Below are positions 408 through 63,139 of a stretch of 64,000 bases of DNA, piece by piece. Position numbers and translations under genes: made by a program. The notes under the pieces were generated by a model. The model saw only the letters and a list, made by a program, of their open reading frames with translations. It ran no database searches and was not told where the DNA came from. Position 1 is the first letter of the stretch, and each line of letters opens with the position of its first letter. Origin of the DNA: Tridacna crocea (lineage: Eukaryota; Mollusca; Bivalvia; Cardiida; Cardiidae); contig OX031070.1 in NCBI GenBank assembly GCA_943736015.1, positions 42,494,173 to 42,558,172 of the forward strand. The letters are read 5' to 3'.

Positions 408-617
408 TTAACCCTTTTATAAAACAATCCTAGGATTTCACTACCCAGAGAAAGAAGCCTTCTGAAAACATTGCGGGAAAAGGAGAACATTTTCCCAGAG
501 TGCTTTCTACCCTTACCAAATTTTCAAAGTTTCAATTTTTGAGTCGGATTAATTTTGACATCTGCGAATGCTTCCAATTTGGACTAGTTAGTCTAAAATT
601 GTATTGTTTGATAAAGT
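408..617 (+). mobile_element. Hairpin MITE, damaged palindrome
   Basis: Starts TTAACCCTTTT and keeps the conserved GCGAATGCTT/CAATTTGGAC distal block, but most of the central hairpin is lost. Confidence 0.6.
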
Positions 618-747
618 CAGCTCTGAGGAAAACAGTTCTCAAAAACAATGCCTGAAAAAGAGAGAATTCCGTTAACCAGAACTTACTCCCTCTGCAACAT
701 TTTCTATCCTTTCAGGGATAACAGCCATCATTCTAGCCATATTTGAC

Positions 748-972
748 TCTTTACCATACAACAAAATTTTGGACTGGTCCAAATTGAAAGCATTTGCTTG
801 CAGACAAAATAAATGTTACTCAAAAATAGAAATTTGATTTTGGAAGGTTAGAAAACATTGTGGGAAAAGGAGAAAATGCTGGTTACCAGCATTTCTCCTT
901 TCCCCACAATGTTTTCAAAAGGCTTCTATCTCAGGGTCGTAAAAAACCAGGGATTGTTTGGTAAAGAGTTAA
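748..972 (-). mobile_element. Hairpin MITE, complete
   Basis: Full palindrome with GGTTACC apex; ends GTTTGGTAAAGAGTTAA. The right arm uses CCCCACAA instead of CCCACAA. Confidence 0.8.
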
Positions 973-1186
973 ATTGCCTTCTGCAAATGCTTTTAAATTC
1001 GACTGCTTTATAACATTGCTGGCTGATACCGGATCAACCCTTGAACACACAATGACAATATCTGATCCCTACCTCAACCATTTAAGATTGATGGCAGGAC
1101 ATAATACAGGCATGGTATCTAGGCAAGGGGCTGGCAACGGAAAATTGGGAATATCTGTCCCTTTTACCAACTTGCATGTGTTAAAA

Positions 1187-1392
1187 TTAACCCTTTACTC
1201 CATAGATACTCATTTCTACACATTGCTTGCAGAAGCCTTTGGAAAACATTGTGGCAAAAGGTGAAATTGCTTGTGATGAGCAATTTCACCTTTTGCCACA
1301 ATGTTTTCTACACTATCAAAAGGCTTCATCCTTGCTGTTAATTAGGGTCAATTAGAGATACCATAGAAATGCCTTATGGGGTAAAAAGTTAA
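1187..1392 (+). mobile_element. Hairpin MITE, subfamily B
   Basis: Ends CTTTACTCCATAGATACTC and CCTTATGGGGTAAA; core is GGTGAAATTGCTTGTGA. Same overall plan as the main family with different arms. Confidence 0.8.
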
Positions 1393-1503
1393 GTAGGCCA
1401 GCTGTCAAGGAATTTTCTGACATAAAATTACAGATTTAAAAAAAAAAAATCCTTTTCGGGATGACTTGCCATTTGTAAGAAAAGCCATGGAATGGTTCGT
1501 CCA

Positions 1504-1866
1504 CATCCTCGGATACCCCAGGGTCTCCCTATTTGCTACGCTACATCGACCCTGGGACAATTGACTAATAAAACTTTGAATCAGCCGCCGAAAATCGATA
1601 CGAAACGTCATACCGTACAGTCCACTCGCCCATCACAAAATGATGATAGAACCAATGAAAAGCCAGCATTCGGCCAGCGGTAAAGCGAGCCGCCGAAAAT
1701 CGATACGAAACGTCATAGCGTACAGTACACTCGCCCATCACAAAATGATGATGGAACCAATGAAAAGCCAGCATTCGGCCAGCGGTAAAGCGAAGGAAAT
1801 TCAACTAATTGTCCCAGGGGTCGATGTTGCGTAGCAAATAGGGAGACCCCGGGGTATCCGAGGATG
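1504..1866. mobile_element. 363-bp TIR element with 9-bp target duplication
   Basis: Inverted repeats over at least 60 bp start CATCCTCGGATACCCC at both ends. GTTCGTCCA is duplicated exactly on both flanks (1495-1503 and 1867-1875). The interior is a tandem pair of about 108-bp units. A 9-bp duplication with long inverted repeats suits Mutator-like (MULE) elements; there is no transposase. Confidence 0.8.
1583..1794. repeat. Tandem pair of ~108-bp units inside the 1504-1866 element
   Basis: Two near-identical copies beginning at AGCCGCCGAAAATCGATACG and ending GGCCAGCGGTAAAGCGA, about 1583-1687 and 1689-1794. Confidence 0.8.
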
Positions 1867-2144
1867 GTTCGTCCAAGTTTCCTTTGAAAAAGCAAGTTTT
1901 GTTTCTCCACATTTCAAATTTACCTACTAAAACAGAAGCTAGACCACTGTGTACACTCACAGCATCAATGACTAGCATTGTCTTTCTGTACGTAGTGTTT
2001 TGGCTAAAAAACGGCCTTGCTGGTATCAAGTTTGGTCAATACATTTTTCTGAATGCTGGAGAAATCATCCCCTGGAGAAGTCGTCCCCTCGAGAAATCAT
2101 CCCCAAACTGCTTAGGGACGATTTCTCCAGAGAATTTGTCCCAC

Positions 2145-2345
2145 AGAAGAGCCAGGAAGGGCAAGGAAGTGTATTTTCGGATTACATATAGAATTAATAT
2201 CTTTAAAAGAGAATATGGTCAAATACTTTTGTTAGTTACTTCTAGAAAAATCTTATGTATCATGTGATGTCCATAAATATATCTAAAAACGACAAAATAA
2301 TAGTACTTCGTAATCAGAAAATACGCTTCCTGGCTCTTCCCGTGA
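2145..2345. repeat. Inverted-repeat insertion within the left foldback arm
   Basis: AGAGCCAGGAAG near 2147 and CTTCCTGGCTCTT near 2328 with adjoining GTATTTTC/GAAAATAC form an inverted pair. The extra ~200 bp separates the left outer and inner arms; the right side has only about 50 bp there. Confidence 0.55.
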
Positions 2346-2616
2346 CGACAGCGAAAGGCCTCCTGGATGGATAGAAATTTTCAAAAAAAAATGTATAACA
2401 TGACAGGGTATCAGGAGAACTCGTATCCTGGAGAACTCGTACCCTAGAGAACTCGTACCCCAATCTTAAGGGTACGAGTTCTCCAGAGAAGTCGTACCCT
2501 GGGTACGAGTTGTCTGGAGAACTCGTACCCCAGATATATTTTTGGGGATAAAATTGTATATATCATTCAGATTTTGGTGAATTGATGATTCTCATTTTAT
2601 TTCTTGTGAAATTAAG

Positions 2617-2845
2617 TTAACCCTTTACCACACAAGAAAATTTTAGACTGGTCCAAATTGAAAGCATTTGCAGACAACAAAATAAAGGTGAGCGAAAAAT
2701 CGAAATTTGGTATGGAAAGGATAGAAAACACTGTGGGAAAAGGAGAAAATGCTGGTAACCAGCATTTTCTCCTTTTCCCACAGTGTTTTCAAAAGGCTTC
2801 TTTCTCAGGGTCGTTAAAAGTCGGGACTGTGTGGTTAAGAGTTAA
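2617..2845 (-). mobile_element. Hairpin MITE, complete, inside the foldback
   Basis: TTAACCCTTTACCACAC start. The apex here is GGTAACC although the flanks are in minus order, so the hairpin may have been inverted or converted. Confidence 0.8.
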
Positions 2846-3780: not shown

Positions 3781-5418
3781 TCTTCAGACGGCTTATATGA
3801 AATTTTCGACTTACACGCGATTCTACGGAGGCATTTTTGTATTCCTGAAACATTGCGGACAAATTATATCACTGACTTTTCCAACCATTATCCTACGTGC
3901 TTAACTCTTTTGGCGCCAAAAGTATACAGGGGACTTCATCGACGATTCACTAAAATTCAGAAAATATTTTTTCTGAAAGGTTTGGCTGAGAATCTTGATG
4001 GTGTAAATCCTAGCTCAGACTGCATTTTTTGCATATTGATCTGGTTCTTTACCATCTGGTTCAATTTTATCGTTAAATGAATTAAGGGTTCAATTTGAAT
4101 ATTGCAATTATGTAACAGTAATTTGGTCATTATCACACCTTTCATCCTCTCTTTGTTCAGGAAATTTGCCTGTTCACCAGGTGTGAAAATTTGATTAATT
4201 CTGTGTTCACTTCATAAACTCCTTCCATTCAACAAATATCTAATCCAATTAAATACTGACTCCTTGACTGTTCTTACACAAAACAGCATCAAACATCAAT
4301 TCAAAACTTGAATGCAAGTGAAGGCCGTTCGAAGAATTGAATAGAGCAAAAATTAATTCTACCAATGATTTTTCAGTTGAATACAATTTATTTATCCCAA
4401 ATGTTTTCCTTATGATTTTTACATCAAATACAACATACACTGCAGGAGAAAACACACATATTTCTGTATTTCATTTATCTTTCCAACACATGTGCAAGAA
4501 AAAAAATCATCAAATCTACATCACAATAACGGCGTAAAAATAAAAGTTGACAGCATGCTGGTAAACTAACATTATATTTATGAGGAGGGGTACGAGTTCT
4601 CCAGAGAACTCGTACCCAGGGTACGACTTCTCTGGAGAACTCGTACCCTTAAGATTGGGGTACGAGTTCTCCAAGGTACGAGTTCTCCAGGGTGCGAGTT
4701 CTCTAGCAACCCATGACAGACATCTCCGGTTAAAAGGTGTCTACTGGGGACGATTTATCCAAAATTTAAATCAGGGAACGATTTCTCCAGAGAAATCATC
4801 CTCAGGGGACGAATTTTCCAGATAACTCGTTCCCAAGCAGTTTAGGGACGATTTCTCCAAGGGACGATTTCTCCTGACACCATTTCTCAACTTTGCCTTT
4901 GGCTGCTGCATGTTCAAAGAAAAGACTCGACGAGAAATACGCAAAAAATATACCTTTATATGCAGGAGCTATCAAGCGCTATGAGTTACGATTTTAATTA
5001 TGAAAACGATCACTCGCCAAATAAACTAAATTCATAGTGAATCGCTATTCGTGCCGGATGGCAACTTCATTTCCATTCCCGTAAATAAATTAAATTCAAT
5101 AGCTTAATTTCGATTGGTGGACTACGGACGTGTGTAATTTGGATTGACCAATCAGAAACAAGAAGAGATAAACGTTTCAAATTGTGATCGATTAATGGTC
5201 TAAGGGAGAAAACTCGTACTAATTTTCGTCTTTATGTCATACAGAGTTGTCTCCCATATTGCGGAACGGTATAAGACCGCAAACGAATGAAATGGGTAAC
5301 GTAATTGTATTTTGTAAAAAAAAAACAGATCGAAATGAGAGAGACTTTTCGTGATTATGAAGAATACTCACATATTATAACAATCAAATATATTTAAGCC
5401 GCGCTCTGGCTAAGAGGG

Positions 5419-5437
5419 GTGGGGGGGGGGGGGGGGG
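5419..5437 (+). repeat. Poly-G tract
   Basis: Run of G interrupted once, directly before the TTAA of a hairpin MITE; likely to be miscalled in assemblies. Confidence 0.85.
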
Positions 5438-5438
5438 C

Positions 5439-5667
5439 TTAACTCATTACCAAACGACAGTATTTTAGGCTTGCCCAAATTGAAAGCATTTGCAGACGAC
5501 AAAATAAAAGTGACTGAAAATTTGAAATTTGTTTTGTGAAGAGTAGAAAACATTGTGGGAAAAGGAGAAAATGCTGGTTACCAGCATTTTCTCCTTTTCC
5601 CACAATGTTTTCTAAAGGCTTCTTTCTCAGGGTCGTCAAAAGTAGGGATTGTGTGGTTATGGGTTAA
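5439..5667 (-). mobile_element. Hairpin MITE, complete
   Basis: Starts TTAACTCATTACCAAACGAC, ends GTGTGGTTATGGGTTAA; palindrome intact. Confidence 0.82.
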
Positions 5668-6074: not shown

Positions 6075-6302
6075 TTAACCCTTTCCCAAACAATCCCTGG
6101 TTTTTACGGGTCTGGAAAAGTAACCTTGAAAACCTTTTGGGAAAAGGAGAAAATGCTCGTAACCAGCATTTTCTCCTTTTCCCACAGTGCTTTCTGCCCT
6201 ATCACAGACACCAATCATCTTTTCAGCAAGAGTTGAATTGTCGTCTGCAAATGCTTTCCATTTGGTCTAGTCCAAAAGTTTGTCATTTGGGAAAGGGCTA
6301 AC
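6075..6302 (+). mobile_element. Hairpin MITE, subfamily C
   Basis: Ends CCCTTTCCCAAACAATCC and TTTGGGAAAGGG; palindrome reads CTCGTAACCAGC, one arm mismatch at the apex. Confidence 0.8.
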
Positions 6303-7596: not shown

Positions 7597-7826
7597 TTCA
7601 ACTCTTTACCACACGAGAAAAATTTAGACTGGTCCAAATTGAAAGCATCTGCAGACGACAAAATAAAGGTGACTGAAAAATGGAAATTTGTTCTGGGAAG
7701 GGTAGAAAACACTGTGGGAAAAGGAGAAAATGCTGGTTACCAGCATTTTCTCCTTTTCCCATAGTGTTTTCAAAAGACTTCTTTCTCAGGGGCATCAAAA
7801 GTAGGGATAGTGTGGTAATGGGTTAA
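7597..7826 (-). mobile_element. Hairpin MITE, complete
   Basis: Begins TTCAACTCTTTACCACAC, where the outer TTAA has mutated to TTCA, and ends GTGGTAATGGGTTAA. Confidence 0.8.
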
Positions 7827-9602: not shown

Positions 9603-9791
9603 TTAACCTTTTACCAGACGACAAAATTTCAGCCTTGTCCAAATTTAAAGCATTTCCAGACAACAATTTCAATGTGGCTCAAATGATGCTAATTTTCTTT
9701 GATATTAGGGTAGAAAAGACTGTGGAAACAATGTTTTCAAAAGGCTTCTTTTCGAGGGTCATTAAAGTCAGCATTGTGCAGTAAAGAGTTA
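9603..9791 (-). mobile_element. Hairpin MITE, collapsed palindrome
   Basis: Flanks are intact but the centre is reduced to ACTGTGGAAACAATGTTTTC, a deletion between the two arms. Confidence 0.7.
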
Positions 9792-11526: not shown

Positions 11527-11754
11527 TTAACCCTTTAACACACAATCCCGACTTTTAGCGACCTTGATAAAGAAGCCTTTGGAAAACATTGTGGGAAAAG
11601 GAGAAAATGCTGGTAACCAGCATTTTCTCATTTTCCCACAATGTTTTCTACCTTTTCCAAAACAAATTTCAATTTTTAAGCCACATTTAGTTTGTTTTCT
11701 GCAAATGCTCTCAATTTGGACAAGTCTATAATTTGTCGTTTTGTAAAGAGTTAA
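11527..11754 (+). mobile_element. Hairpin MITE, complete
   Basis: Inserted at TTTAA right after the 3' end of the SINE; palindrome has one T-to-A change (TCTCATTTT). Confidence 0.8.
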
Positions 11755-11873: not shown

Positions 11874-12073
11874 AAGTAACAAAATTTGAGACGGGTCCAA
11901 ATTAAAAGCATTTGTGGGACTCAAAAATTGAATCTTGGCTTTAGAAGAGTAGAAAACATTGTGGGAAAAGGAGAAAATGCTGTTACCAGCATTTTCTCCT
12001 TCTCCCACAATGGTTTCAGGAGGCTTCTTTGTCAGGGTCGTAAAAACCAGGGATTGTTTGGTAAAAGGGTAAC
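11874..12073 (-). mobile_element. Hairpin MITE, shortened flank
   Basis: Apex is TGTTACCAGC; the block between GCATTTG and the hairpin is about 30 bp short. Confidence 0.7.
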
Positions 12074-14637: not shown

Positions 14638-17600
14638 CTGAAATAAAGAATAGCAACAAATATGGGTGCCAATACATGGCTGCATTTACTCTTAGGTTTA
14701 TAGTGTTTTCGTGTCGTTTTATCCCTTTACCGAACAATCACTGTTTTTTACGACCCTGTGAAAAGAAGCCTTTTAAAAGCATTGTGGGAAAAGTAGAAAA
14801 TGCTGGTAACCAGCATTTTCTCCTTTTCCCACAATGTTTTCTATCCTGCTAGAGATAAATTTCAATTTTTAAGTTTCATTTATTTTGTCATCTACAAGTG
14901 CTCCTGATTTGGACCAGTCCAAAATTTTGTCGTTTGGTAAAGGGTTAAACATCACTGCAGTTGTATAACATCAACCAGTGCACCCAGCCATCCATGCTTA
15001 CCCTTTCTTAACCCTTTACTCCATAGATACTCATTTTGACATATCAACAACAGACATCATTTAAAAACATTGTGGGAAAAGGAGAAATTGCTCGTAACGA
15101 GCAATTTCTCCTTTTCCCACAATGTTTTCCACTTTATCAGATGTTTATATCCTCATTTGTCCATATTTTTGACATCATATCTATATTTGTTGCTGAAATG
15201 GAAGAGCCTCAAATTGGCATATGAGGTAAAGGGTTAAAATCACCAGTACTCACCAAAATATTCTTTTCCTAGCCAATGGCTGCTTTCAAACATAAACATC
15301 ATTGAAACAATGGTGAAGTGTGAGAGAGGAATGAATCCTGTCCCAATGATCATCATCAATCCTCAGAAAGAAATTGGCAGAGCCTAGGAATGAACCAGCC
15401 AGCTGCTTTTAGAATCAGACTGACTTTCAGAGAAAATTTAATTTGAAACAAATTGTCGCAAGATATACCCCACCCACTGCCAGCTGTCGAGGGGGTACAA
15501 TAGCCTTAACTCTTTACCACACGAGAAAATTTTAGACGGTCCAAATTGAAAGCATTTGCAGACGACAAAAATAAAGGTGACTAAAAAATAGAAATTTGTT
15601 CTGGGAAGGGTAGAAAACACTGTGGGAAAAGGAGAAAATGCTGGTTTCCAGCATTTTCTCCTTTTTCCATAGTGTTTTCAAAAGGCTTCTTTCTCAGGGG
15701 CGTCAAAAGTAGGGATTGTGTGGTAATGGGTTAAAGGACAGGTAATGCAACAAACATGTTTACCAAGTCTCAAGTCAATTTGACATGAGGTGAAGTTTGG
15801 TTCCAGACAAGCAAGAAATACTGAAAAAATGATGATCAAAGTGGAATTACTCAAATTACAAGCTAAGTAGAGTTATCGTTCTTGCCCTCTGTACTCTGTT
15901 ATATTGCAATAAACACACATATCAAGTTTGAAGTCATTCTGACTTGAGATGACAAAGTTGTATTCCAGACAAGCACTGAATGCTGTAAAATGGTGATCAA
16001 AGGTATACAAGTCAAAGACAGCACAAGGTAGAGTTACAATTCTTACGCACTGCACTTCTAAATATTGCAACTAATAAGCATACTACCAGTACATTTCAAG
16101 TCATTCCTACTTAAATACTATACAAAAATGAAGATCAAAGGGGAATAACTCAAAATTTGAGCTAGGAAGAGTTATGGTTCTTATGCACTACACTTGGTAT
16201 TTTTTCAACAGTCATGCATGCCAAATTTGAAGATGATCGGACTAAAGATGATAAAGTTATATTCCGGATAAGCAGAAAATGCTATAAAATGATGATCCAA
16301 GGGAAATAACCCAAACACAGCATGAGATAGAGTTATGGTTCTTTGGCACTGCACTTCGTATTATTGCAACAAACTCAAATATCAAGTTTCAAGTCAATTG
16401 GACCGCAGATGACAAAGATATGTTCCAGACAAAGAACTGGGAGCTGCCTGGATGCCATGGGTGATCCCATAAAACCTCCCATCTTCGACGGGGGTATAAA
16501 AAGTCTGTGACTGTTGGTGGAATGCAGCTCAAATAACAAAGTAAACAGAAGAAGGAAAATAAGTCTGTCAGTGTATTTGAACAAAATAAGAGACTAGTTT
16601 TTACCGTGAAACTTTGTTTTTGATTGTTTGTTAACTCCTTAACAAACGACAATATTTAGGCTTGTCCAAATAGAAAGCAACTGCAGATGACAAAATAAAA
16701 GTGACTGAAAATTTGAAATTTGTTTTGTGAAGGGTGGAAAACAGTGTGGAAAAAGGAGAAAATGCTGGTTATAAGCATTTTCTCCTTTTCCCACAATGTT
16801 TTCTAAAGGCTTCTTTCTTAGGGTCGTCTAAGTAGGGATTGTGTGGTAATGTAACATTAACCCTTTCCCAAACAATCCCTGGTTTTTTTATGGGTCTGAA
16901 ATTGTAACCTTTTGAAAACATAGTGGGAAAAAGAGAAAATGCTGGTAGCCAGCATTTCCTCCTTTTCCCATAATGTTTTCTACCCTATCATAGGTAGAGA
17001 TCATCTTTTCAGCAAGAGTTGAATTGTCGTCTGCAAATGCTTTCAATTTGGTCTAGTCCAAAAGTTTGTCGTTTGGGAAAGGGTTAAAAGATTTAACAAT
17101 CCTACCACTGCTATTTCTTACCTTCGTCTCCGCATCACTGCTACTTCTTACAAATGAAATAATAATAACAGCTTTATCGCGACCTTGATACTGATCTACG
17201 GTGTTGACCTCAACCTGCGACCTGTGACCTTCACCTTCCTGTAACTTGTTCCTGATCAGGAACACTTGACTTCTGTAGGGAGCAATGATTCCTATATCTG
17301 TTGTGTCTACGCCAACCTTTAATAGGTAAAAAGGAACAAAAGCACTGTAACCAGGAGCCAACCCTCAGCTGCATTTACTTTTATATATGTATAAATGTGT
17401 CAACTAGAGCTATCACTAAACGTGATTATACCCCCACCAGCTCTTTGTCACAAAAACAGACCTTTGTTACAGAATGCAGTAAGGTAAGTAAAAGAAGTAA
17501 GTAAGAAAAGTTCAAGGGGAGATAATACAGTAAAAAAAAAAAAATCGCAGCAGGATCATGAAAATTGCACATGCACAACTTTATAAATAGGAACTTGTGT

Positions 17601-44600: not shown

Positions 44601-47600
44601 AATGCAGTTCAGACACTTGTGATAGATTCTATAAAGTCAAGTTTAGGAAGCAAAGACACCATTAACCCTTTACCAAACGGTAAAATTTCAGACTAGTCCA
44701 AATTGAGAGCATTTGCAGACGACAAACGTAACTAGGGAATTGAATTTTGTTTTGGAAAGGGAAGAAAACATTGTGGGAAAAGGAGAAAATGCTGGTAACC
44801 AGCATTTTCTCCTTTTCCCGCAATGTTTTCAGAAGGCTTCTGTCTCAGGGTCGTAAAAACCAGGGACTGTTTGGGAAAGGGTTAAGAATTTCTTTCATTT
44901 ACCTTCAGTGATACATCAACAGTCAAATCTATTTTCCCTTTTATACCAAGTCTGTGAAAGAAACAAAAAACATAATATGCATATCTGAAAAGCATTCTAC
45001 TTTACAGTTCTACTTAAATTAACCTCTACCTAACGAAAAAATTTTAGACTGGTCCAAATTGAAAGCATTTGCAGATGACAAACTGAAGGTGGCTTTATGA
45101 TGAAACTTGCCTTTGATTGAGTAGAAATTTTAGGAAAAAAGGAGAAAAGGCAGGTCACCTTCCACAATGTTTTTGAAAGCTTTCTTTCTCAGGGTCATCA
45201 AAACTTGGGATCGTGTGGTGATGGATTGAGCAAGCACCAACAATGTGTTTGCTTTACATAGGTGTTTGCTTAACTCATTACCAAACGACAATACTTTAGG
45301 CTTGTCCAAATCGAAAGCATTTGCAGACGATAAAATAAAAGTAATTTGAAATTTGTTTTGTGAAAGTAAGAAAACATTGTGAGAAAAGGAGAAAATGCTG
45401 GTTACTAGCATTTTCTCCTTGTCCCATAATGTTTTCTAAAGGCATCCTCTCAGGGTTGTCAAAAGTAGGGATTGTGTGGTAATTTTAATTTCATGCTTTT
45501 ACTAGTTTAACAGTAAGTAATGGTGGATTTAAGATTTGATAATTCATCATTACAACCAGTGAAATTAACTTTAAATGTTCCCTTAACTCTTAAAGGTGGC
45601 TCTTCAGATTTTGGGATGGAACTTTTACAAAACTAAAAAAAAAAAATCATCCTTATATTCCCAAAGCCTTTTAATCTTAATTCCTAAAAACCCTGTAGTT
45701 GAAAACCATCCGAAAACAAGAAATATTAGAGATTTACTATGGCACAGGCCGAAGCCGCCGGGAAACTCATTCTATTTTTACAAATGCTCAGTGGTTAAGG
45801 TATTGGCCTTTCATCTGGGGGGGTTCTAGGATTTGAATCCTGCCCGGTCCCTTATTTGTGCCATGTATTTGTTCATTTGTTGTTTTGTTTCGGACTTTGT
45901 TCATGAGAATATCTGTAGATAATCATTACCTTGGTGACCAAATATTCTCTTCTATGTCGTTTACCTTTGTCACTAGGACATCTTTGTCTGTATGCCTGTA
46001 AGAATTAAAACATTGAACCTTTACCAAAATATCCCTGGATTCTTACAACCCTGTGATAGAACCCAAAACCAAAAACCAAATTTAGAGTTTTCCAATTTTA
46101 ACCCATTACCACACAATCCCTACTTTTGACACCCCTGTGATAGAACCTTTTGAAAACACTGTGGAAAAAGGAGAAAATGCTGGTAACCAGCATTTTCTCC
46201 TTTTCCAACATGTTTTCTACCCTGCTGGAAACAAATTTCAATTTTTGTATTACATTTATTTTTTTGTCTGTCAGTGCTTTCAATTTGGACACGTCTAAAA
46301 TTTTGATGTCTTTTAAAGGGTTAAGTCACCATTTGACAAACAATCCAGCATATTTATAAGACCCTGAAAATAAAATGTGATGGTAACCAGCATGTTTTCC
46401 TTTTCCTACAATCATTTATTCCCTTCAACAGATCAAGTTCCAGTTTGCACCACACTGTATTTGTTGACTTTAACACTTTCAAATTGGAAAACTCCAAATT
46501 TGGTTTTTGGTTTTGTAAAGAATCAGAAACAAGTATTACTTTGCCTTGGGGTGTGTGCATTTTTGAGGAAAAAAAATACTTGTAGAATAATAAAGCTCTT
46601 TAACAACCCTGAAAAAAAAAGGCTTTTGAAAACTTTGAGGGAAAAGGAGAAAATGCATTTTCTCCTTTTCCCACAATGTCTTCTATACTTCCAAACACAA
46701 AATTTAACTTTTAAGTCACCTTTATTTTGTCATCTGCAAATGTTTTCAATTTGGACTGGCCCAAAAGTTTTTGGTTTGATAAAAAGTTAACAACTAATAT
46801 AAAATATCACAAAGGCAACAAAGTCTTTTGTAAATTGAACTGAAAATTAGGAAGAATATGATCCATCAACACAAGTAAAAAATACCTAGAATTTCCAGAC
46901 CCTAATTTCCCAATATTTGTGAACTGTTTTGTCCAGGATTCAATTTGCGGGATGTAGTTTTTGACTTCCTCCATCACTTGTTCTTCTGTCACATTATTTG
47001 AATATCTGTATTGAGAAACAAAATTAAATGTTTACTTGTATGGTGGCTAATGACGTTTTCAACATTATTTCAGTTAACCCTTAACCACACAATACAGACT
47101 TTTGATGCTCCTGGAAAAGAAGCCTTTTGAAAACATTGTGGAAAAAGAAGAAAATGCTGGTAACCAGCATTTTCTCCTTTTCCCACAATGTTTTCTATCT
47201 ATCAAAAAAAAAACCACACCATTTGAGCCACAATGACACTGAAATTGTCGTCTGCAAATGGTTTCAATTTGGATAAGGCTAAATATTTTGTTGTCAGGTA
47301 AAGAGTTATCGAGGCCGCCAGTGCACCCATCTATACTTTCCCCGAGTTTCTTTTACCAGTAGTCTGTAAAATATTCTTTCCAAGCAAATGGCTGCTTTCC
47401 CACATAACCATTGTCAAAACAATGAACAGCAGTGAGAGAGGAAAAAATCCTGTTGCGACAACTATCATTAATTCACGGAAAGAAAATAGCAGACCGGCCG
47501 TGGGGATCAAACCAGCGACCCCCCTGTTCTCAAGTCCTGTAGCCCACCAACTAAGTCACCTGGGCTCGGCAGATAAAAACTGAACAACAAAATTTTACAT

Positions 47601-50600
47601 CCTGTAGAAGACAATCGTTGAAACATTATACAGCAAAGATATCGTGGCTTTAAATTGTTGCATCTATTTAACCCTTAACCAGACGACAAAATTTTAGCCT
47701 TATCCAAATTGAAAGGATTTGCAGACGACAATTTCAGTTTTCCTCAAATGGTGCAATTTCACTTTGTTAGGGTACAAAAACATTGTGGGAAAAGGAGAAA
47801 ATACTGGTTACCAGCATTTTCCCTTTTTCCTACAGTGTTTTCAAAAGGCTTCTTTCCCAGGATCATTAAAAGTCAGCATTGTTCAGTAAAAAAAAATAAA
47901 CATAACTCAGAAACTTGAAATCGAATATGTTGGCCGTCTTACCTAATCAAAAAAGTTAAATTACAATAATCTTGTGCTCTATGGGATAAACAATAAATCA
48001 AGCTATATACTTACATTTCCAGCAGATTCTCTTTTTGTCTCACTATTTTCAGAGCTTCATGTACAATTTGGTCCCCTGTCAACTCCTTCCTAAGCACCTA
48101 CAAGATCAGAGAAAGTACATATAGAGAATAACAAGGGCTTTTTATTACTCTCATAAAAGAAAAACCCAAAATTTGCTCATCCAGTACTACAGGCTGGTTC
48201 TTCATTAATGATCACTTTTAGCTCATTTTTAATCCCTTACGAAACAATTCTGATTTTTAACAACCCTGATGCAGACGGCCTGGTAAATAGCTAGAGCAGA
48301 AAACTTAAATACAGATTTTACCTTATGATATAAATAGCTTTGTTTTCAACATAATATAGCCATGAGGAATTTACAATTTATGTTGAAAACGTTAAAGATA
48401 AGCAAATAGTTCTGTCACTCGACAAAGCTGTGTAATTTTACACCTCAGTTCTATAACACTGCTGACCAAGATTTCCCTGTTAACTCATTACCAAACAACA
48501 AAACTGAAAGCATTTGCAGACGACAAATGCAAGTGACTGAAAATTTGAAATTTGTTTTGTGAAGGGTGGAAAACGATGTGGGAAAAGGAGAAAATGCTGG
48601 TTACCAGCATTTTCTCCTTTTCCCACAATGTTTTCCGATGGCTTCTCTCTCAGGATTATCAAAAGTAGGGACTGTGTGGTTATGGATTAACAGTTAAAAT
48701 TGATGATTGTGACAAAACTACCAATTTGAATATCTTTAGATGTAAAATCTTATTGTCATAGGTTTACTTCTATAGAAATGGTTTTTGTCTGTGTTGCACT
48801 CACCTGTCATAGAAGAAAATGGGTCCCATTCATGTGAAATTTCAATACAAATGGACACGGCCAACATGAAAGTAGGTCTATGTTTGGTCATTTTACAGGC
48901 TGTATTTCTCGATGTACAGTAAAGTGATACCTGACATTTGCTGCCCTTTTGGGTAATTTCTTTGAACATTTCAAGTGAGAATGTTATCCAGCTTGCAAAG
49001 GGATTGCTTAATAACACTTCGCTAGTACTACCTCAAATGCCAACCAATGTCAATTCCTTATGAAAATTACCTCTTGAAATATACTGTGTAAAATGCTCCC
49101 ATACAACATTTGTATATTGCCTTTTTCACATCCCTGAAAGTATGAGCAAAAAAAACCAATTCTTTAGCATACAGTCCTGTGTTCTAAAGACTATAAAGAG
49201 AGATTATGAAAAACATTCTGGGAAAAGGAGAAAATGCTAGTTTTGTTAGAAAGCTTATCTGTACAAAGATACCATACATTTACGTGAATATCATAAGCTT
49301 TCATAATGCACAAAAGTAACTTCATGAACATTATATGCAACACAGTTTAACCATTTACCAACCAATCCTGCCTTTTAACAACCACTGGGAAAAATATTTT
49401 TGAAAACACTTTGGGAAAAAGACAAAATGCTGGTAACCAGCATTTTCTCCTTTTCCTTGATGCTTCCTTATCAAACTACAAAATGTTGGACTGGTACATA
49501 TTGAAAGCATTTGCAAATGACAAATTAAAAGTACTTCAATTTATAAATTTTTGTCTCTGTAAGAATAGAAAACTCTGTGGGGAAAAGGAGAAAATGCTGG
49601 TTACCAGCATTTTCTCCTTTCCCCACAAGGTTTTCCAAAGCTTTTCTTCCTAGGGTCATGAAAACTAGGGCTTGCATTGTTTGGTAAAGAGTTAACCTTT
49701 TGCCACACAATGATGACTTTTAAAAGCCCTGAGGAAGAAGCCTTGTGAACACATTGTGAACACATTGTGGGAAACGGAGAAAATGCTGGTAATCAGCATT
49801 TTCTCCTTTTTCCACAATGTTTTCGACCCTATCAAAGCAAAATTGCACCATTCGAGCCACTTTGAAATTATTGTCTGCAAATGCTTTGAATTTGGATCGG
49901 CTGAAAAATTTGCTGAGTGGTAAAGGGTTCAACGACAATTCTGGTCCGACGTTTGAACCACATTTAACTTGCTGTCTACAAACCCTTGCAAATTATATTT
50001 GTTCCAAATTGAATTCTGTCATCTAGTAGGAGTTAATCTGAAGAAATAATCTAGAATTACTGACCTTAAACTTTTCTTTCAAAATGGACCTGTAACAGAA
50101 AACAATCGTTGCATTCTAAATATTTTTAGTGCAACATCACACAGACTCATAAAACACATATAATGAATTTCTGTTGGAATGTGTTAACCCATTACCACTC
50201 AATCCCTACTTTTGACGACCCTGAGAAAGAAGCCTTTAGATAACATTGTGGGAAATGGAGAAAATGCTGGTAACCAGCATTTTCTCCTTTTTCCACCATG
50301 TTATCTACCCTTCACAAAACAAATTTCAAATTTTCAGTCACTTTTATCTTGGCGTCTGCAAATGCTTTCGATTTCGACAAACCTAAAATTTTGTCGTGTG
50401 TAATGAGTTAAACCTTTATCAGGCAAGAAAATTAAGAACTTGTTCTAGTTGAAAGCATATGTAGACAAAAATTCTAAAGAAGTTCAAATAATGTGATTTG
50501 TCTTTAGGAATGAATATAATATTGAGGGAAAAGGAGAAAATGCTGGATACCAGCATTTTCTCCTTTTCCCACAATTTGTTCAGAGAGTTCTTCTTCAGGG

Positions 50601-53600
50601 TTTTCAAAAATAAAGATTGTGTGGAAAAGGGATATTTCAAGTTCATTACTTTCAGATAATTCTTCTTATTTGCCCTTCTTTAACTTAGTTTATTATATGC
50701 CTAGCAGTGAAATCCTGGAATTTTCCAGTGTAATAAATTTTGATATCATCACTAGTGACTTTATCAACTTTCACTTTCACTTCCTGCCGTAATTTGGGTA
50801 CTACTTTTTTTTTCGACTGCATTTTTTTGGACTTTCAAATGCAAAATTACAAATAATGATGTTAATAAGGTATATAATAAATAGAATAATCAACTGGTTA
50901 TTTTTGATATGAAAAATATCTCACTCGGATGCGTCGTAAGGCGTTAAAAAAACTCGTGCTGCACACTCGTTTTTTCAACGCCTAACAACGCATCCTCGTG
51001 AGATATTTTTCATATCAAAAACAACCAGTTGATTATCCTCTATTTGTCCACTTGTAGTTAAAAGTTTATTAAATTTATACAAACCTTTTCACCCTTCACC
51101 AAACAATCCCTGGTTTTTACGACCCTGAGATAAAAGCCTTTTGAAAACATTGTGGGAAAAGGAGAAAATGCTGGTAACCAGCATTTTCTCCTTTTCCCGC
51201 AAAGTTTTTGATCCTATCAGGAAAAGTTGTTTCATTTGCGCCAGTATGAAATTATCATCTGCAACTGCTTTCAATTTGGATAGGTAAAAAATTTTGCAGT
51301 GTGGTAAAGGGTTAAGCAGACTCTCACAGGTAAGTACTTAAATTTCATTTTGTTTTTCTTTTTGAACGACGACTCCGGTAACATTTTTTAGGTCCCACAT
51401 AAACATTAATACTGGTACCAAATCCATTCAAAGTTACTTGCTACCCTTATTGATAAATTATTACAAAATCACTCTGAAATACTTATCCATAAATTAACAC
51501 ACATGAAAAAATGCTTGATGCAAAATACGCAGAAACCCGTGACACAACAAAATGTTTCTTAACTCTCAACTCTTTACCACTCAATCCCGACTTTTAATGA
51601 CCCTAAGAAAGAAGCCTTTTGAAAACATTGTAGGAAAAGGAGAAAATGCTGGTAACCAGCATTTTCTCCTTTTCCCACAATATTTTCTACCCTTCCCAAA
51701 CAAAATTACAATTTTTCAGTCACATTTATTTTGTCGTCTGCAAATGCTTTCAATTTGGTCTGGTCCAAAATTTTGTTGTTTGATAAACAGTTAGCCAAAT
51801 GTCAAAATTCTAGACTGGTCCAAATTGAAAGCATTTGCAGACGACAAAATAAATGTGACCGAAAAATTAAAATTTGGTTTGGGGAGGGTACAAAACATTG
51901 TGGGAAAAGGACAAAATGCTGGTTACCAGCATTTCCTCCTTTTCCCAATATGTTTTCAAAAAGTTTCTTTCTCAGGGTCGTTAAATGTCAGGATTGTGTG
52001 GTAAACAGTTAATACATTGTCCAATCAGAGTCACTTCAGACCTTCTTTTTGGATGACTTTAAGCTGTAAATTTCCAGAGATACATATACCTTGATATAAC
52101 AGACTTTATTGCTGCAAATCATCAATCTGGAATGCTTTACTTTAGCTGAAATACCCTCAAATATGAAATCTTACCCCCAGACTTAATTTACAGCTCTGGG
52201 GGTAAGTGTACCCTTGAAATAAACAAAAGTGGGAACACTGCTTGTAGCTACATATATAAATGACCTCACACCAACCTAACTACCAACAACTGTTGTTTCC
52301 CTGACAACAAAAGGTCAAGGTCAGTGACCTTTCTAATACTAGTATGTATAACCTCACCTTCTCATGCAGAACAAACTTCCAACAACTGTTGTCCCTGACA
52401 ACAACAGGTCAGGGTTCACCACAATAAAACCACACTGGTCAGAGATGTGACATTCACTATCCTTGAAATCTGCCAGAACATGAACAATATCTCCAACGCT
52501 AAAATGGGTGTCCTGCCTGTAAAAGAAATTAAAAACATTTTCTTTTCAGGTACAGCATTAATATTTCTATTATGTCAGTTTGAGTCTGATTTTCAAAATT
52601 AGAAAGTAACATAACTTCTAATTGGCTAAAACATTTGGTTTAGCCAACCAGAAGTTGTGTTACTTTAAATGGTTTACCCAATCAGAACTTCTGTTACATT
52701 CAGCAGTTTAGCCAATCAGAAGTCATAGAACTGTTGGTGAACACAGACCCTGATTTCAAACTGTAGAATTAACTTAGAAATATGGAAAAAAATCATCATG
52801 ATTGTGTTTGTTTCAGCACTTAAGAAATTCTAACAAGTTACATTTTGTACACAAACCTGCATCTGTGCATCTGTATACATCACCCATTCTTATGAACATT
52901 CCAAGTCTTTTTTTTTTTTGAGAATTTTCTACATTTGAAAGTAACACAACTTCTGATTGGTTTATAAATAGTTTAGCCAATCAGAAGTTGTGTTACTTTC
53001 TATACCTAGAATAAGACTTAGAATGAAAATGGGTGAATAGAAACCATTGAGTTTTGATATAAACACTATGACAGCAAGCTTTCGATTCAATTTTATTCTA
53101 TCATTTTTTACCCCGTTACCAAACACTCCCTTGTTTTCACGACTCTGGGAAAGAAGACTCTTGAAAACATTGTGGGAAAAGGAGAAAATGCTGACTATGT
53201 TTTTCATCCTATTAAAGAGCTCATGTTCAATTGCATAATTATAAATATATCGCTTGCAGATGTTTTGAAGACGAAAGTCCAAATTTGGACATTTGGGAAA
53301 GGGTTAAAAATCCTCACAGGGCCTTGCGTACACCTAGACACAGTTTTAAGTGTTTCAGCAGACAATGTAGATCAATACCAGGCTGGACAAAACTTAGCTA
53401 CATTATGCTACATCTACTGCAGCTGCAGAGAGCATCAGCCTCATAACCATTAGGTCCTGAGTTCGATACCAGGGGGTGGGTGTCATCTTTGGGATTTTCA
53501 CTCGCCCACACATTCGGCATGAGTAGGCTACTGGTGTAGTTCCCAGGAAGCAGAATCAAGAGAGATTAGTATCGTGGTAAAATAAATATGTTTAAACTAA

Positions 53601-56600
53601 GTTTCTGTGACCTGGCCAAGACTTGAACACACAACCACCTACTCTCATGACAAGCTCTTTACATCATACCCAATGAAAAACATGTATTTACCAGTTTCCA
53701 TGCAGGAAGCACTTTCTGCACATTTCCTCTGGTTGAGACAAAACCTCCAATACCATGTGATCTCTGTGAAATATGAACATACAGTATCTCATCAGAGCTC
53801 CTGATAGTAAGAGTGATTTTTATTTCAAAATTGAAAATATTGATTATTCTCCACCAAACCCTTCTAATGAGTACCCACAACACAGGATTTCAAAGAGAAA
53901 TAATGGATTTAGAATATATCACTCCCTCTTATCTGGAGCTCTGTCTTATGTTTGTTGTATATGAGATAAAACTTTATTAATTAACCCTTTACCACACAAT
54001 GATGACTTTTAACACCCCCTGGAAGAGGTGGCTTTTGAAAACATTGTGGGAAAAGGAGAAAATGCTGGTTACCAGTATTTTCTCCTTTTCCTACAATATT
54101 TTCTGCCTTATCAAAGAAAACTCATTTCATATGAGCCACATTGAAACTGTCATCAGTAAATGCTTTAATTCGGACAAGTCTAAAATTTTGTCGTATGGTA
54201 AAGGGTAAAATTTAACCTCTTACCACACAATCCGGATGACCCTGAGGAAAAATCTACGTCTAAAAAGACATTATAAGGAAAGGAGAAAAAGCTAATAACC
54301 AATGGTTTTTTGTATGCTTTCAAAGATAAATTTAATCATTTTAGCCACATCTGACTTGTTTTCTGAATATGCTTCTTCTTTGAATCATGTGACCGTTTCT
54401 CAAGAATTATAGTGTAATAATATGTTCCAATAAAGGCCTAGATGTCCACCCTTGAGTTCTTTGCTTCTTTAACAAGGTTGTCAATAGTTTAACCCATTAC
54501 CACACAATCCCTACTTCTGACGCCCCTGAGAAAGAAGCCTTTAGAAAACATTGTGGGAAAAGGAGAAATGCTGGTAACCAGCATTTCTCCTTTTCCCACA
54601 ATGTTTTCTACCCTTCACAAAACAAATTTCAAATTTTCAGTCACCTTTATTTTGTCGTCTGCAAATGCTTTCAATTTGGACACGTCTAAAATTTTGTCGT
54701 CTGGTAATGAGTTAAAAAAAAAATGTTTACATGTAACATATAATACATGAGGGTTGATTATCTACATTATCTCATCTGTAATTTTCTGCTTTTAGCACTT
54801 TTTCTTTAACACTTTATTCAACATTCTTATACTGTTTATCCCTGTTCAAACTGAAAGCATTTAACATAGAAACAAAAAATCAGAGCTATCACTAAATGTG
54901 ATCAGCTCCTTGTCACAAAAACAGGTCCTTGTCACAGAACGCAGAATCGTTTAGTACAAAAGTAAGAGCAGCAGAATGGTTTTAACCCTTTCCCAAACAA
55001 CAAATTTTGGACTCTTCCAAACCAAAAGAGTTTGCAGATGACGATTTTAGATTTGGAGAAAATGCCTGAAAGTTTTCAAAAATGGTAGAAAACACTGCGG
55101 GAAAAGGAGAAATTGCTCGTTACCAGCAATTTCTCCTTTTCCCACTGTGTTTTCAAAAGACTTTTACTGCAGACATGCAAAAACCAGGGCTTATTTGGGA
55201 AAGGTTTAAGTACAAAAGTAAGAGTAAGTACTTACATTTTTCTTTCCACTTTTGTTACAATATGACGACCAAACTCTCCGCAAGGGGCCCCTTCAAGAAT
55301 AGGCTTGTTTTCTTGAGATCTGTGGTGAGAGAGAGAAGAATCCTGGATGTTGAAACTTGGGGGAAGTATTTACAAAGCATTATCAACCTTTTACCACATA
55401 ATCGCGACTTTTAACGACTCTCAGGAAGAAGGCATTAGAAAACATTGTTGGAAAATGAGAAAATGCTGGTAACCAGAATTTTCTCCTTTTCCTACAATGT
55501 TTTCTACCCTACTAACCCATTACCACACAATCCCTCCTTTTGACGCCCCTAAGAAAGAAGCCTTTAGAAAACAATGTGGGAAAAGGAGAAAATGCTACTA
55601 ACCAGCATTTTCTCCTTTTCCCACAATTTTTTCTACCCTTCAAGAACAAATTTCGAATTTTCAGTCACTTTTATTTTGTCATCTACAAATTCTTTCAATT
55701 TGGACCAGTCTAAAATTTTGTCGTTTGGTAATGAGTTGAAGAAACTTTGCACCATTTGAGCCACTATGAAATTGTCACCTGCAAATGCTTTCAATTTGGT
55801 TAGATTTAAATTTGCTGTGTGGCAAAGGGTTAAGAATATACTTAGCCTTGTTCACAAAAATTGTTCAAAATTTGTAAAATTGCAGTAAATCTGTAATCTG
55901 TGAAAAAGTTAAAAAAGCTCCAACTTTCGAGAGCTAAATAGCAATGCATGTAAACAGGGGAATTAAAATCCATCTAAAAGTAGTTCGTAACCTTTTATCA
56001 CATGTCAAAGGAGACCATTCCTTCATGCATAGCTTCGTCCCGATTTAAATACAATACCTGACAACTGCATTGGGAGATATCTGTATGGCTAAGTGGTTAT
56101 GGTACTGGTCTTTTAAGGATATTTGTATGCCATGGGTTTGAATCCGCCAAGATACTGTTTGTATTTCAACAGTGCATTTGTTGTGAACTTCATTTCCGTA
56201 ATACAAACAATCCTGAGTTTTGATGACACTAAGCAGGAAGGCCTTTGAAAACATTGTTGGAAAAGGAGAAATGCTTTCAACTTGGACTAGTCCACAATTT
56301 TGTCATTTGCTAAAGAGTTAAACACAAACTTATGTTCTGTCACTCTGTGTAATCGTCAGAATTACCTGATAAAGAAGATTCTACTGAGCGCTCAGAATAT
56401 ATAGGTTTTGGTTTAGAACTATGGGTATTATTACTCTATTAGCCCTGAAAAAATCCCTCTTCTATCTGGTTAACCCATTACCACACAATCCCTACTTTTG
56501 ACGCCCCTGAGAAAGAAGCCTTCTGAAAACACTGTAGGAAAAGGAGAAAATGCTGGTAACCAGCATTTTCTCCTTTTCCCACAGTGTTTTCTACACTTCA

Positions 56601-59600
56601 CAGAGCAAATTTCAATTTTTCATTCACCTTTATTTTGTCATCTGCAAATGCTTTCAATTTGAACCAGTCTAAAATAATGTCGACTGGTAATGAATTAAAT
56701 ATTCAAAAGACTTAGATTACTTTACTTTATATCCAAAATCAATTGCAATCCCAGTGAACATTTGTCACATTCATATTATTTTTCATCAATAACCCAATGC
56801 AAAAGATTAATGGTCATGGTGGTCAAGATTCAATTCAAGTCAAATCAGTTGACATTTTGCGAACAATCCTTAGGTTTAATAACCCTTCTAAGTTCTACAA
56901 GTGTGAAAAACTTGTGGGTAGAGGAGAAAGTGCTGTTACCGCACTTTCTCTACAAATATTTTTACACTTTCATCTAAAATTAGTATCATAGCACAACATT
57001 TGTCTTCTGCAATGTCTTATTCATGAAAACATTCCAAATTTACAAGTAACAGAACTTCTGATTGAATAAACCATGTCATTTTGCCAATTAAATTGTGCAT
57101 TAGTTTCAAATTTTGAAAAAATCTGGAGAATAAGACTAAAAATATTCTTAAACGACAAACTTTTGGACTAGACCAAATTGAAAGCATTTGCAGACAACAA
57201 TTCAACTCTTGCTGAAAAGATTATTTCTGTCTATGATAGGGTAGAAAACATTGTGGGAAAAAGAGAAAATGCTGGTTACCAGCATTTTCTCCTTTTCCCA
57301 CAATATTTTCAAAAGGCAACTATTCCAGACCTGTAAAAACCAGGGATTGTTAGGGAAAGGGTTAAGAATAGTTGGTGATACAGACCCTGCACTCAACAAA
57401 CAACATGTTCCAATGCTGAAGTACGCGTTTGACAATGTCATCACATTTGTATAAACGACAGATTCCGGATTCAAGATAAACTACCAAAACCTTTTATCAA
57501 TGCTTCCTTAAGATAAACTCTTTACCAAACAATCCTAGATTTTTACCAACCCTGTGAATGAAGGATTTGAAAAAATGTGTGAATAGGAAAAAATGCTGAT
57601 AGCCAGCATTTCCTCCATTTTCCAGTGTTTATTACCCTATATAGACTATCTGAGCTACATTTTCTACATTTTGTCACCTGCAAATGCTTTGATTTTGGTC
57701 TCGTCCAAAATGTTATTGTGTGGTACAAAGACTTAACTCTTTACCAATTGACAAATTTTTTTACTGTACCAAATTCAAAGCATTTGCAGACAATAAATTA
57801 AATTTCATTCATATGATGATTTCTGACTTTGATAGAAGGGAAAATATTGTGTTTTCTATAGGCTTCTTTCTTAGGGTCGTTAAAAGTCAGGAATGTGTGG
57901 TAAAGAGTTAAGACAAACCTTTAAATAATAAGTTGCAATAAGAACCCTATACAAACCTTGTATCTTTGAAAGGTGAAAAGCTTTCTATTTTATCACAAAT
58001 CATCTGGCTATCTAACTGTGTTATAAACTCATCAATGTCTTCATCTAGCTCAGTACAGTCTTTACTAGCTTTCACCGGAGTAACATCAACTATCACATGA
58101 TCACTACAGTCCATTGAACTCATGCTGTCAAATTTAGATAAATTTATATGTTTATTTATCACATTTAGCTCGTCAGTTTCAGGGTTTAAATCTTTACAAT
58201 ACTCTAACCGTGCATCTGATTTTACTTCCAATTCCATAGAAGAGTCTTCATTTTGACTGGGCCTTTCTGTGTTTGGTTTATCACTCCAAGATGATACTGC
58301 CTTACCAGTCAAGAGTTTAATTCTGTCATCAACCCTCTGATATTTTTTCGTTTTATCAATTTCTTTCTCACTTTTCTGGATATCAGCGAGCACAAAATCC
58401 TTACAACCTTTTGTTTTTTCGTCAGATTCCATTTCTAATTCCTTCATAAAATCTTCATCTTCCTTCGACCATTCTGAGGTCAGTCTATCACGCAAGGCTG
58501 ACGCTTTCTTTCCATACGAGGTTTCAACACTGCTTTTGACTTCCTGATTTTTTTTCACATCTTGTCCGAACTTCAAAACTTTTTCCAAACTGTAGCGTTT
58601 TCTGTTTGGTTGTTTCAGGTCTTTTCTCAAGGAGTGGTCTTTTTCCACACTGTTTTCCATGTTATCTGATTGTTGTAAAGGTTTGGTTTGACCATTAAGA
58701 TCTTGTTTACTATTGTTCAACTCGTCTAAAATACTGCCAAGCACATCGTCATTTTGTACTGATTCTGTGTCTATCTTTGTCATGCCTGAAATGTACCAGT
58801 AAGCCATTCTTTGTGAAAAGGGATTCTATGCATTCGTAACAAGTACTGACTCAGAGCTCCAGATAGAGATAGTGATTTTGATTTCAAAATCTGGAAATAA
58901 TATTTACTATCTACTGAACCCTATGTTGCGGGTACTCATTAGAATCATCTTATCAAATATATGTGTTTTGATTAATTGACTAGTGTTTTATGGTCCTTTC
59001 AACATCTTTTAATTTTAAGTCATATAAACTGGTCAGTTATACTAAATGCCTTGTAAGAACCTTACAAGCCCTAACACTTAACCACACAATCCCTACTTTG
59101 GACAACCCTGTGAAAGAAGTCTTTTGAAAACATTGTGGGAAAAGGACAAAATGCTGGTAACCAGCATTTTCTCCTTTTCCCGCGATGTTTTCTACCTTTC
59201 ACCAAACAAATTTCAAATTTTCAGTCACTTTTATTTTGTCGTCTGCAAATGCTTTCGATTTCGACAAGCCTAAAATATTTTCGATTGGTAATAAGTTAAG
59301 TGCAGATGGCAAAGATAGACAGAAACACTAACCTGTGTCACAATGGAGTTGGTAATTCATCAGCTTCATGCCATTTTTCTTCTGTTGTTCCTTCCTAACC
59401 TCTCTGTGTCTAATCAATCTATCTTGTTTAGCTTTCTCTAGTTTCTCCAGTTTTTCTTTTCTTTTCTGCTCTAGTATAACATTTGCTTCAGCCGCTCTTC
59501 TATTCATTTCTTCAATTTCTCTGTTTCTTATCTCATCACTATTAAGGTCATTAACAGTTTTTGTATCACTATCAAACTCAAGATTTTTCATAACAGTGTA

Positions 59601-61728: not shown

Positions 61729-61836
61729 CTTCTTTGCTCAAGAGAAATCAACTCTGAAAGTGGAGAAATTATTGTTAATTGTCAACAAAAAAAAAAAGGC
61801 ATAGATTTAAGTTTATCACCTTTATACCTTCAGTGT

Positions 61837-61936
61837 GAAGGTCTGCTTTGATGCTATTTTTGTTATTGGTCTTCGACTTCGTTGCTTTAAAGATCTGCGA
61901 AGACTAGTAACAAAAATAGCATCAAAGCAGACCTTC
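61837..61936. repeat. 100-bp foldback upstream of DNA2 ATG
   Basis: GAAGGTCTGCTTTGATGCTA at the left, TAGCATCAAAGCAGACCTTC at the right; arms about 38 bp, loop about 23 bp. It lies in the inferred first intron. Confidence 0.8.
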
Positions 61937-62257
61937 AGACTGAATGCATCTCCCTTACAGCACCTTTCACAACACCAGTTGCCATTTTGATCTGTGTAGA
62001 TTAAGATCAGACTGCACAAAATGTGCAATCTGATCTTTGATGTGGCTTGTTTAATATGGCCATTTTTCATTTCTCAATTCATTTCCATTTCTCCGTTCAG
62101 GTATTAAAGCGGAAGGAATAAGCGCTTGTGATGTTTTGTCCCACCAGGGTTCTATTCTGTCCGGTATTATGCATTGCATCCTATCCTACATTGATAGTAA
62201 TTTTTTATCAAATAAGATGCAATCAGTTTGAAAGAATATATTGCATAAAAAACATTC

Positions 62258-62483
62258 AACTCATTACCAAACGACAAAATTTTAGATTTGGCCAAATCAA
62301 ATGCATTTACTGATGACAAAATAAAAAGTCACTGAAAATTCGAAATTTGTTTTGAGAAGGGTAGAAAACATTGTTGGAAAAGGCGAAAATGCTGGTTACC
62401 AGCATTTTCTCCTTTTCACATGTTTTCTAATGGCGTCTTTCTCAGGGGCATCAAAAGTTGGGATTGTGTGGTAATGGGTTAAA
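62258..62483 (-). mobile_element. Hairpin MITE
   Basis: Arms GTTGGAAAAGG / CCTTTTCACATG; ends GTGTGGTAATGGGTTAA. Confidence 0.78.
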
Positions 62484-62489
62484 AAGCAA

Positions 62490-62920
62490 ATGTTCAATGT
62501 TTTTCCACATTGAATACGCCTAAATGGGTTGTATTTCCTCTTTACTAAGAAAAGGGTAGTCCGTCTGAACTGGAGTGTAGAATATTCATCAGTCCTTAGC
62601 AGCCTTGTCAACTAATCAAATGAGAAAGTGGCCATGCTACTCCAATTGGCCAGCTATGTTTGAAAATGGACTTGGATCGAACCTTTTGATGCAAGTTGTA
62701 GTGACTTAAATTTTCAGTTAAATGTTTGATTCAGATTTTATAATTGATCATTGCACAAAAACCTTGATTCCTTGACTAAAAATGTCCATTTTGTGAGCTT
62801 ATTTACGCTCAGATGAACAGAGAAAGGAGAATACAGCATAAATAGCACTGCTGATAGACTACAGATGAAATTGCACTTCTCTAATCTACAAATGTTTGTT
62901 TTTTTTTTTTGTTTTGTTTT
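62490..62920. other. No recognisable feature
   Basis: Within the inferred first DNA2 intron; ends in a poly-T run, no repeat or coding match. Confidence 0.45.
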
Positions 62921-62924
62921 CACC

Positions 62925-63139
62925 AGTTACCACATAGCAAACTTTCAGACCTATCCAAATTGGAAGCATTAGCAGACGACAATTTCAAAGTGGTTTAAAT
63001 GGTGCAATATTGCTTTGATAGGGTAGGAAACTGTTGGAAAACTTTGTGGTTACCAGCGTTTAATTCTTTTCCCACGATGCTTTCAAAAGGTTTCTACCTC
63101 AGGGGTGTAAAAAGTCATCATTTTGTGGTAAAGGGTTAA
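62925..63139 (-). mobile_element. Hairpin MITE, left arm deleted
   Basis: CTGTTGGAAAACTTTGTGGTTACCAGC; the last copy before the promoter region. Confidence 0.65.

Follow-up and report, generated by a model that had tools for sequence, protein, structure and literature searches.

We analysed a window of 64,000 nucleotides from the genome of the bivalve Tridacna crocea (assembly GCA_943736015.1, contig OX031070.1, positions 42,494,173 to 42,558,172 of the forward strand), a third of which consists of copies of a short, TTAA-bounded element with a palindromic centre, lying around two open frames that match the DNA2 helicase. An earlier sequence-only reading of the window had described about ninety copies or pieces of such a miniature inverted-repeat transposable element (MITE), making up a quarter to a third of it. 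From 34 full-length copies we built a profile, which at a threshold of 1e-3 on the expectation value (E) gave 213 matches, the palindrome being often matched on both strands, and no match below this threshold in the reversed window used as a control (best E 0.003). After removal of overlaps, 116 pieces were left (66 on the plus and 50 on the minus strand), 69 of them near full length, and the element covered 33.3% of the window. The TTAA-bounded palindromic element and its outer limits at positions 408 and 63139 were thus confirmed, the number of pieces being higher than first counted.

The consensus was 229 bp long, with TTAA at its start and end, as in most of the copies whose end words were listed. 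Its left tip was CCCTTTACCACAC and its right tip an imperfect inverse of it; next to the TTAA, the element began with CCC as piggyBac elements do, the consensus reading TTAACCCTTTACC on the left and GGTAAAGGGTTAA or GGTAAAGAGTTAA on the right. The centre was a 67-bp palindrome, with 33-base arms flanking one unpaired base. These ends, an asymmetric subterminal block and the palindrome arms were all as originally described. In the full copy 5439-5667 (minus strand), which had no arm mismatch over the 34 pairs compared, the central-palindrome stretch (5540-5625, plus strand) was predicted to fold as RNA with -55.4 kcal/mol (z -12). Short, lacking coding capacity, with inverted tips and a high copy number, the element has the features of a MITE. 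A scan of the window against Rfam at gathering scores gave no match, and the exact core was absent from the viral and bacterial/archaeal contigs searched.

The target site was assessed by joining the flanks of 51 copies, with the left four-base end word kept, and searching the joined sequences with the profile. Five of these copies were inserted in an older member of their own group (743-972, 22370-22599, 31477-31705, 43804-44027 and 55512-55739); the other 46 were not nested in the group and are therefore uninformative on the target site. The alignment of the host across the junction was gapless in four cases and had a one-base gap in the fifth (43804-44027). Three hosts were restored nearly whole: that of the plus-strand copy 55512-55739 (host about 55385-55833; E 9e-57), that of the minus-strand copy 22370-22599, which splits an older minus-strand copy at 22186-22626 that was recovered in full when its flanks were joined with one TTAA (E 3e-46), and that of the plus-strand copy 43804-44027 (host about 43691-44118; E 1e-34). 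The full copy 743-972 (minus strand) lies in an older copy at about 620-1021. Of the five inserted copies, one still has TTAA as both end words, and in the other four one or both have changed, as in 743-972 (TTGA / TTAA) and 55512-55739 (CTAA / TTGA). Because the older copies run across the joined flanks when a single end word is kept, the element inserts into TTAA and duplicates it, as the sequence-only reading had supposed, and it did so in at least two waves of spread. Several waves had been proposed to explain the differing divergence of the copies; besides the younger copies within older ones, the 69 near-full copies differed from their nearest neighbours by 0.04 to 0.31.

The same reading had presented the family as saturating one gene, and in this respect it did not hold, since the family is found genome-wide. 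In the 1,048.8-Mb assembly (31 contigs, 18 of them of 40 to 77 Mb each), the exact 31-base core occurred at 191,599 sites, the exact tip TTAACCCTTTNCCACAC at 36,098 (18,004 + 18,094) and an exact subterminal 31-mer at 25,405 (12,587 + 12,818), with no match for the reversed control in any of these searches. The exact core was 7.5 times commoner than the subterminal stretch of equal length, an excess that in part reflects subfamilies differing in the latter. Ten random 4-kb stretches (40 kb) were covered to 16.8% (range 0 to 54%), the element being matched in nine of them; they contained 41 pieces in all, and the exact core 9 times. As the window contains 19 exact cores against 11.7 expected per 64 kb, its density exceeds the mean of the genome by a factor of about 1.6. 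Multiplying the pieces per exact core (4.6 in the random stretches, 6.1 in the window) by the 191,599 core sites gave a small-sample estimate of about 0.9 to 1.2 million pieces genome-wide; with 746 and 1,122 covered bases per exact core, respectively, genome coverage is put at about 14 to 20%, again a small-sample estimate.

Copies of three further families were present in the window: F1 (1187-1392, plus strand; 25344-25572 and 29525-29752, minus strand; and the nested copy 31477-31705, plus strand), F3 (15008-15237, plus strand) and C (19425-19653, plus strand, with pairs 26 and 31 of the palindrome switched, and 54982-55209, minus strand). They differed from the main family in the sequence between tip and core, with similar tips and a core of the same kind. 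Among 70 window copies (those with too few comparable positions being left out), close pairs differed by 0.055 in the core vs 0.066 outside it, and distant lineages by 0.218 in the core where the outside differed by 0.640, that is, was nearly unrelated; across lineages with outside differences of 0.44-0.64, the core differed by about 0.2. In a pooled set from which loci L026-L029, duplicates of L025, were removed, 44 close pairs gave 0.062 in the core vs 0.074 outside (ratio 0.84). The 37 copies with a perfect inner core and enough outside sequence differed from the consensus outside the core by 0.187 on average. Since close pairs decay alike and distant lineages keep the core, there is hardly any protection of the core once a copy has been inserted; it was retained in the lineages that multiplied. 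A core common to several families could also be a functionless module exchanged between them recently by recombination or gene conversion, and as F1 and F3 have one end in common only (the left, the right being different), the elements do look like mosaics. However, the families differ from one another at several pairs of the core, largely by matched changes, for which exchange alone is insufficient, and we regard this explanation as rather doubtful.

Changes in the two arms were strongly paired. Window copies exhibited 42 complementary double differences, whereas exchanging the right arms among copies 500 times gave a mean of 12.3 and a maximum of 24, and the pooled set of 271 copies contained 133 matched and 69 unmatched doubles where about 40 doubles were expected overall (copies with too few comparable positions were left out of the pair counts). 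Many of the doubles fell at a few pairs by which the families are distinguished: 8 (T-A to C-G), 14 (G-C to C-G or A-T), 21 (A-T to T-A), 26 (A-T to T-A) and 31 (G-C to C-G). A second version, in which pairs 26 and 31 are switched (pair 21 being left free in the pattern), was found at 25,805 sites genome-wide; at the 56 distinct sites among the matches listed, which all lie near the beginning of a single contig, pair 21 was matched, in one state or the other, in 56 of 56. Covariation between lineages is thus strong, in terms of copies and not of events. Within the arms, the motif GTGGGAAAA had been considered as a CSL/Su(H)-type site and was dropped, F1 having GTGGCAAAA or a variant in its place; two of the four F1 copies have the corresponding change in the opposite arm as well.

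Palindromes are bound by piggyBac transposases, the element carrying in each end a 19-bp palindromic internal repeat recognised by the cysteine-rich domain (PMC7351741, PMC11707139) and piggyBat having imperfect palindromes that are bound (PMC11707139), so that the palindrome described here might be a transposase binding site of that kind. Yet with its 67 bp, its central position and its matched pairs switched at several positions, the core agrees better with pairing than with a fixed recognition sequence, and such a role appears improbable.

The arms could be kept alike by mutation rather than by selection, replication or repair copying a changed arm onto the other through a quasi-palindrome template switch. 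In yeast reversion assays, mutations extend the identity between the arms of imperfect inverted repeats, rendering both arms identical (PMC3820800). In the present case the copies are dispersed, and changes in the main core were counted over the genome. The change A>G at pair 24 was found in the left arm alone at 421 sites, in the right arm alone at 461 and in both at 20, vs 1.0 if the arms were independent; unpaired doubles of pair 24 with the neighbouring pair 25 numbered 3 and 7. For G>C at pair 31, the single changes numbered 275 and 302, and both arms were changed at 14 sites vs 0.43 if independent, but unpaired doubles with pair 32 were about as common (8 and 6), so that this excess is not specific to pairing. 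The unpaired control thus supported arm copying at one of the two positions: there is a pairing-specific excess at pair 24 and not clearly one at pair 31. When grouped by flank similarity, the 20 doubles of pair 24 fell into 19 groups and the 14 of pair 31 into 13. Separate groups are no proof of separate events, few background copies having been compared, and the unpaired control doubles also formed many groups (10 sites in 10 groups, 14 sites in 13 groups). The 14 unpaired double-change sites at the hairpin neck (L091-L104) had differing flanks, with A at the centre in 13. In a distance test covering the 55 of 58 double-change loci with enough aligned positions, 6 of the 19 doubles tested for pair 24 and 4 of the 13 for pair 31 had another double of their own kind as nearest copy. 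Of the pooled copies, 23 had three or four changes at the 30 inner positions; they contained 9 complementary pairs, against 3.4 doubles of any type expected, but none of the 19 with exactly two inner changes was a complementary pair. Arm-to-arm copying in single copies is therefore possible. As an explanation of the matched hairpin as a whole, it leaves the conservation of the core sequence between families unexplained, and we give it some, though limited, credit.

The transposase profile PF13843 of piggyBac had 118 matches in the genome, many with open frames. In the search for an autonomous partner, 38 of these loci were read, and inverted ends were recognised in 14 and not recognised in 24. 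The inverted CCC ends were CCCTTTATATAC at seven loci (about 2.77 kb), CCCTAGTCATGC or CCCTTGTCATGC at three, CCCTTTCAGYGC at two, and CCCATTTATGCC and CCCTCTAGA at one each. The piggyBac elements with CCCTTTATATAC ends (L014-L019 and L023) are about 2.76-2.77 kb long; L014-L017 have a 624-codon open frame and profile scores that are the same or almost so, suggestive of recent activity. Two sets of candidate partners were rejected. In L017 and L051, the MITE tips on both sides of the transposase belong to separate MITE copies. In L025-L029, another TTAA end is found 3.1 kb away from a MITE-like tip; these are five nearly identical copies (99.5-99.9% vs L025) of one segment of more than 4.0 kb that contains a piggyBac transposase as well as MITEs, and since the segment exceeds the fetched stretch and the MITEs lie within it, it was not retained.

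Kolobok and Sola3 are also superfamilies with TTAA targets, and TTAA alone is insufficient to define piggyBac, so that the elements could belong to one of these. Among the molluscs analysed in one study, Kolobok is reported to be almost confined to bivalves (PMC10294476). On the other hand, CCCTT and CCCAT are among the four common tip motifs of animal piggyBac elements (PMC10813416), and piggyBac transposases are numerous in this genome, Kolobok and Sola transposases not having been searched for. We consider an origin outside piggyBac very unlikely.

The explanation that we favour, and hold to be likely, is that these are non-autonomous TTAA cut-and-paste elements, most likely moved by piggyBac, whose matched hairpin was probably selected in source copies, given that the spreading lineages kept the matched palindrome. 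A piggyBac-type transposase would read the tip CCCTTTACC and its variants and move elements of several families, which use the same tips and central hairpin but have unlike sequences between them. The 67-bp palindrome stayed matched in the lineages that spread, the inserted copies decaying almost like their surroundings, and the hairpin may aid spread either as DNA or as RNA. That it stayed matched across lineages while the rest changed hints that it matters for spread.

Several points weigh against this explanation. No transposase locus with CCCTTTACCACAC ends was found, the ends being recognised in 14 of the 38 loci read from the 118 matches; the partner may be extinct or among the remaining 80 loci, or a resident transposase may accept the tips. 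Inserted copies do not especially retain the core, the ratio of 0.84 in close pairs arguing that selection does not act on single copies, and recombination could be an alternative source of the core common to the families. Common descent persists in the swap control, and many of the complementary cells were inherited within families (pairs 8, 14, 21, 26 and 31). The abundance figure derives from a single window and from random stretches amounting to 40 kb. Taken as a whole, the interpretation of the sequence-only reading is partly supported: the non-autonomous nature of the elements, their TTAA duplication, CCC tips and hairpin core and the several waves are borne out, and the restriction to one gene has been abandoned.

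The remaining copies are distributed along the whole window. On the plus strand, full copies were located at 6075-6301, 11527-11754, 14719-14948, 16857-17087, 19185-19410, 27442-27673, 28088-28316, 33211-33440, 46098-46324, 47074-47308, 50184-50411, 51088-51315, 53981-54208, 54489-54715, 56470-56697 and 59072-59299, and near-full copies at 408-616 (from the profile), 23186-23394, 24453-24674, 24679-24869, 34119-34345, 36573-36768, 46595-46790, 49692-49929, 51568-51793, 53108-53307, 57516-57725, 60976-61201 and 61425-61668. On the minus strand, full copies were located at 2617-2845, 7598-7826, 15506-15734, 18420-18644, 23709-23937, 24228-24456, 27725-27950, 44662-44885, 60717-60943, 62256-62482 and 62919-63139, the last of the window, and near-full copies at 9603-9791, 11877-12070, 16631-16851, 18641-18827, 20179-20366, 21520-21728, 32269-32503, 39267-39495, 39779-39970, 45023-45227, 45270-45482, 47668-47890, 48480-48690, 49466-49695, 50409-50633, 51795-52012 and 57148-57365. 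The copies 18420-18644 and 18641-18827 have one TTAA in common, and 51568-51793 and 51795-52012 are the halves of a 215-bp inverted pair. A 107-bp tandem duplication (19973-20186) adjoins MITE pieces.

Other small repeats were observed in the window. At 1504-1866, a 49-base inverted pair (96%) surrounds a twice-repeated 105-bp unit; this is a small inverted-repeat element of another kind. Units of 16 and 31 bases like GGTACGAGTTCTCCAGAGAACTCGTACCC, which are nearly palindromic, form short arrays at two sites 2 kb apart (2408-2530 and 4588-4874), and a palindrome with 52-base arms (90%) and a 22-base spacer lies at 61824-61949, where there is no MITE match.

The best solved-structure match of the minus-strand open frames 17053-17364 and 23991-24212 was the DNA2 helicase. 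The exon part of the former is 17122-17364, with one predicted exon end, a splice donor AAG/GTAAGA; the full copy 16857-17087 ends 34 bases beyond this donor. Only at 17 and 24 kb were exons of DNA2 recognised, and the extension of one gene over the window is a claim of the sequence-only reading. Neither 17122-17364 nor 23991-24212 contains any element copy. Two long frames, 57947-58825 and 59328-60473, had no confident protein family; the former is free of copies, the latter is overlapped over 5 bases at one end by one piece, and the full copy 59072-59299 lies between them. The copies near open frames thus lie outside them, save for this 5-base overlap.

Compared with known systems, the elements resemble piggyBac elements and piggyBac-derived MITEs by the duplicated TTAA, which piggyBac targets (PMC7351741), by their CCC tips and by the absence of visible coding capacity, and differ from them by a long central hairpin common to several families and by the same-ended autonomous partner, not found in the 38 of 118 loci read. 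The closest architecture is that of the MITE-like repeat 1 of Lucina pectinata, a 210-bp repeat of haemoglobin introns and promoters with imperfect terminal inverted repeats, a 77-bp self-complementary centre and several copies (PMC4732748); the likeness concerns the description of its architecture and not its sequence, and for that repeat no target duplication was found and no superfamily named. Among the three reports compared in this respect (the one just cited, PMC10294476 and PMC6210712), it alone describes a matching architecture, and none of the titles returned by a literature term search concerned a very abundant piggyBac MITE. A lucinid genome of 17 chromosomes and 1.58 Gb was reported to contain 5.18% DNA transposons (PMC11830101). 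As in the highly conserved domains of short interspersed elements (PMC6887750), a conserved module occurs here in otherwise different families, but it is a DNA-transposon hairpin with base-pair covariation.

We propose, as an idea that is itself unlikely, that the core is a selfish module of several piggyBac-type MITE families, its base pairing being selected in source copies. The site left by piggyBac on excision can be closed with no DNA synthesis (PMC7351741), so that a gain in copies would require moves from replicated to unreplicated DNA, and one may speculate that a hairpin slowing the fork inside the element favours such moves. The genome-filling piggyBac-like MITEs of Tridacna crocea are ordinary in their insertion and unusual in their scale and in their common, covarying hairpin core. 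Their many copies constitute a natural experiment on whether a hairpin is kept by selection or by arm-to-arm copying, which single loci cannot tell. By our estimate, this element group extends over a seventh to a fifth of a gigabase genome, which is the scale of Alu in the human genome.

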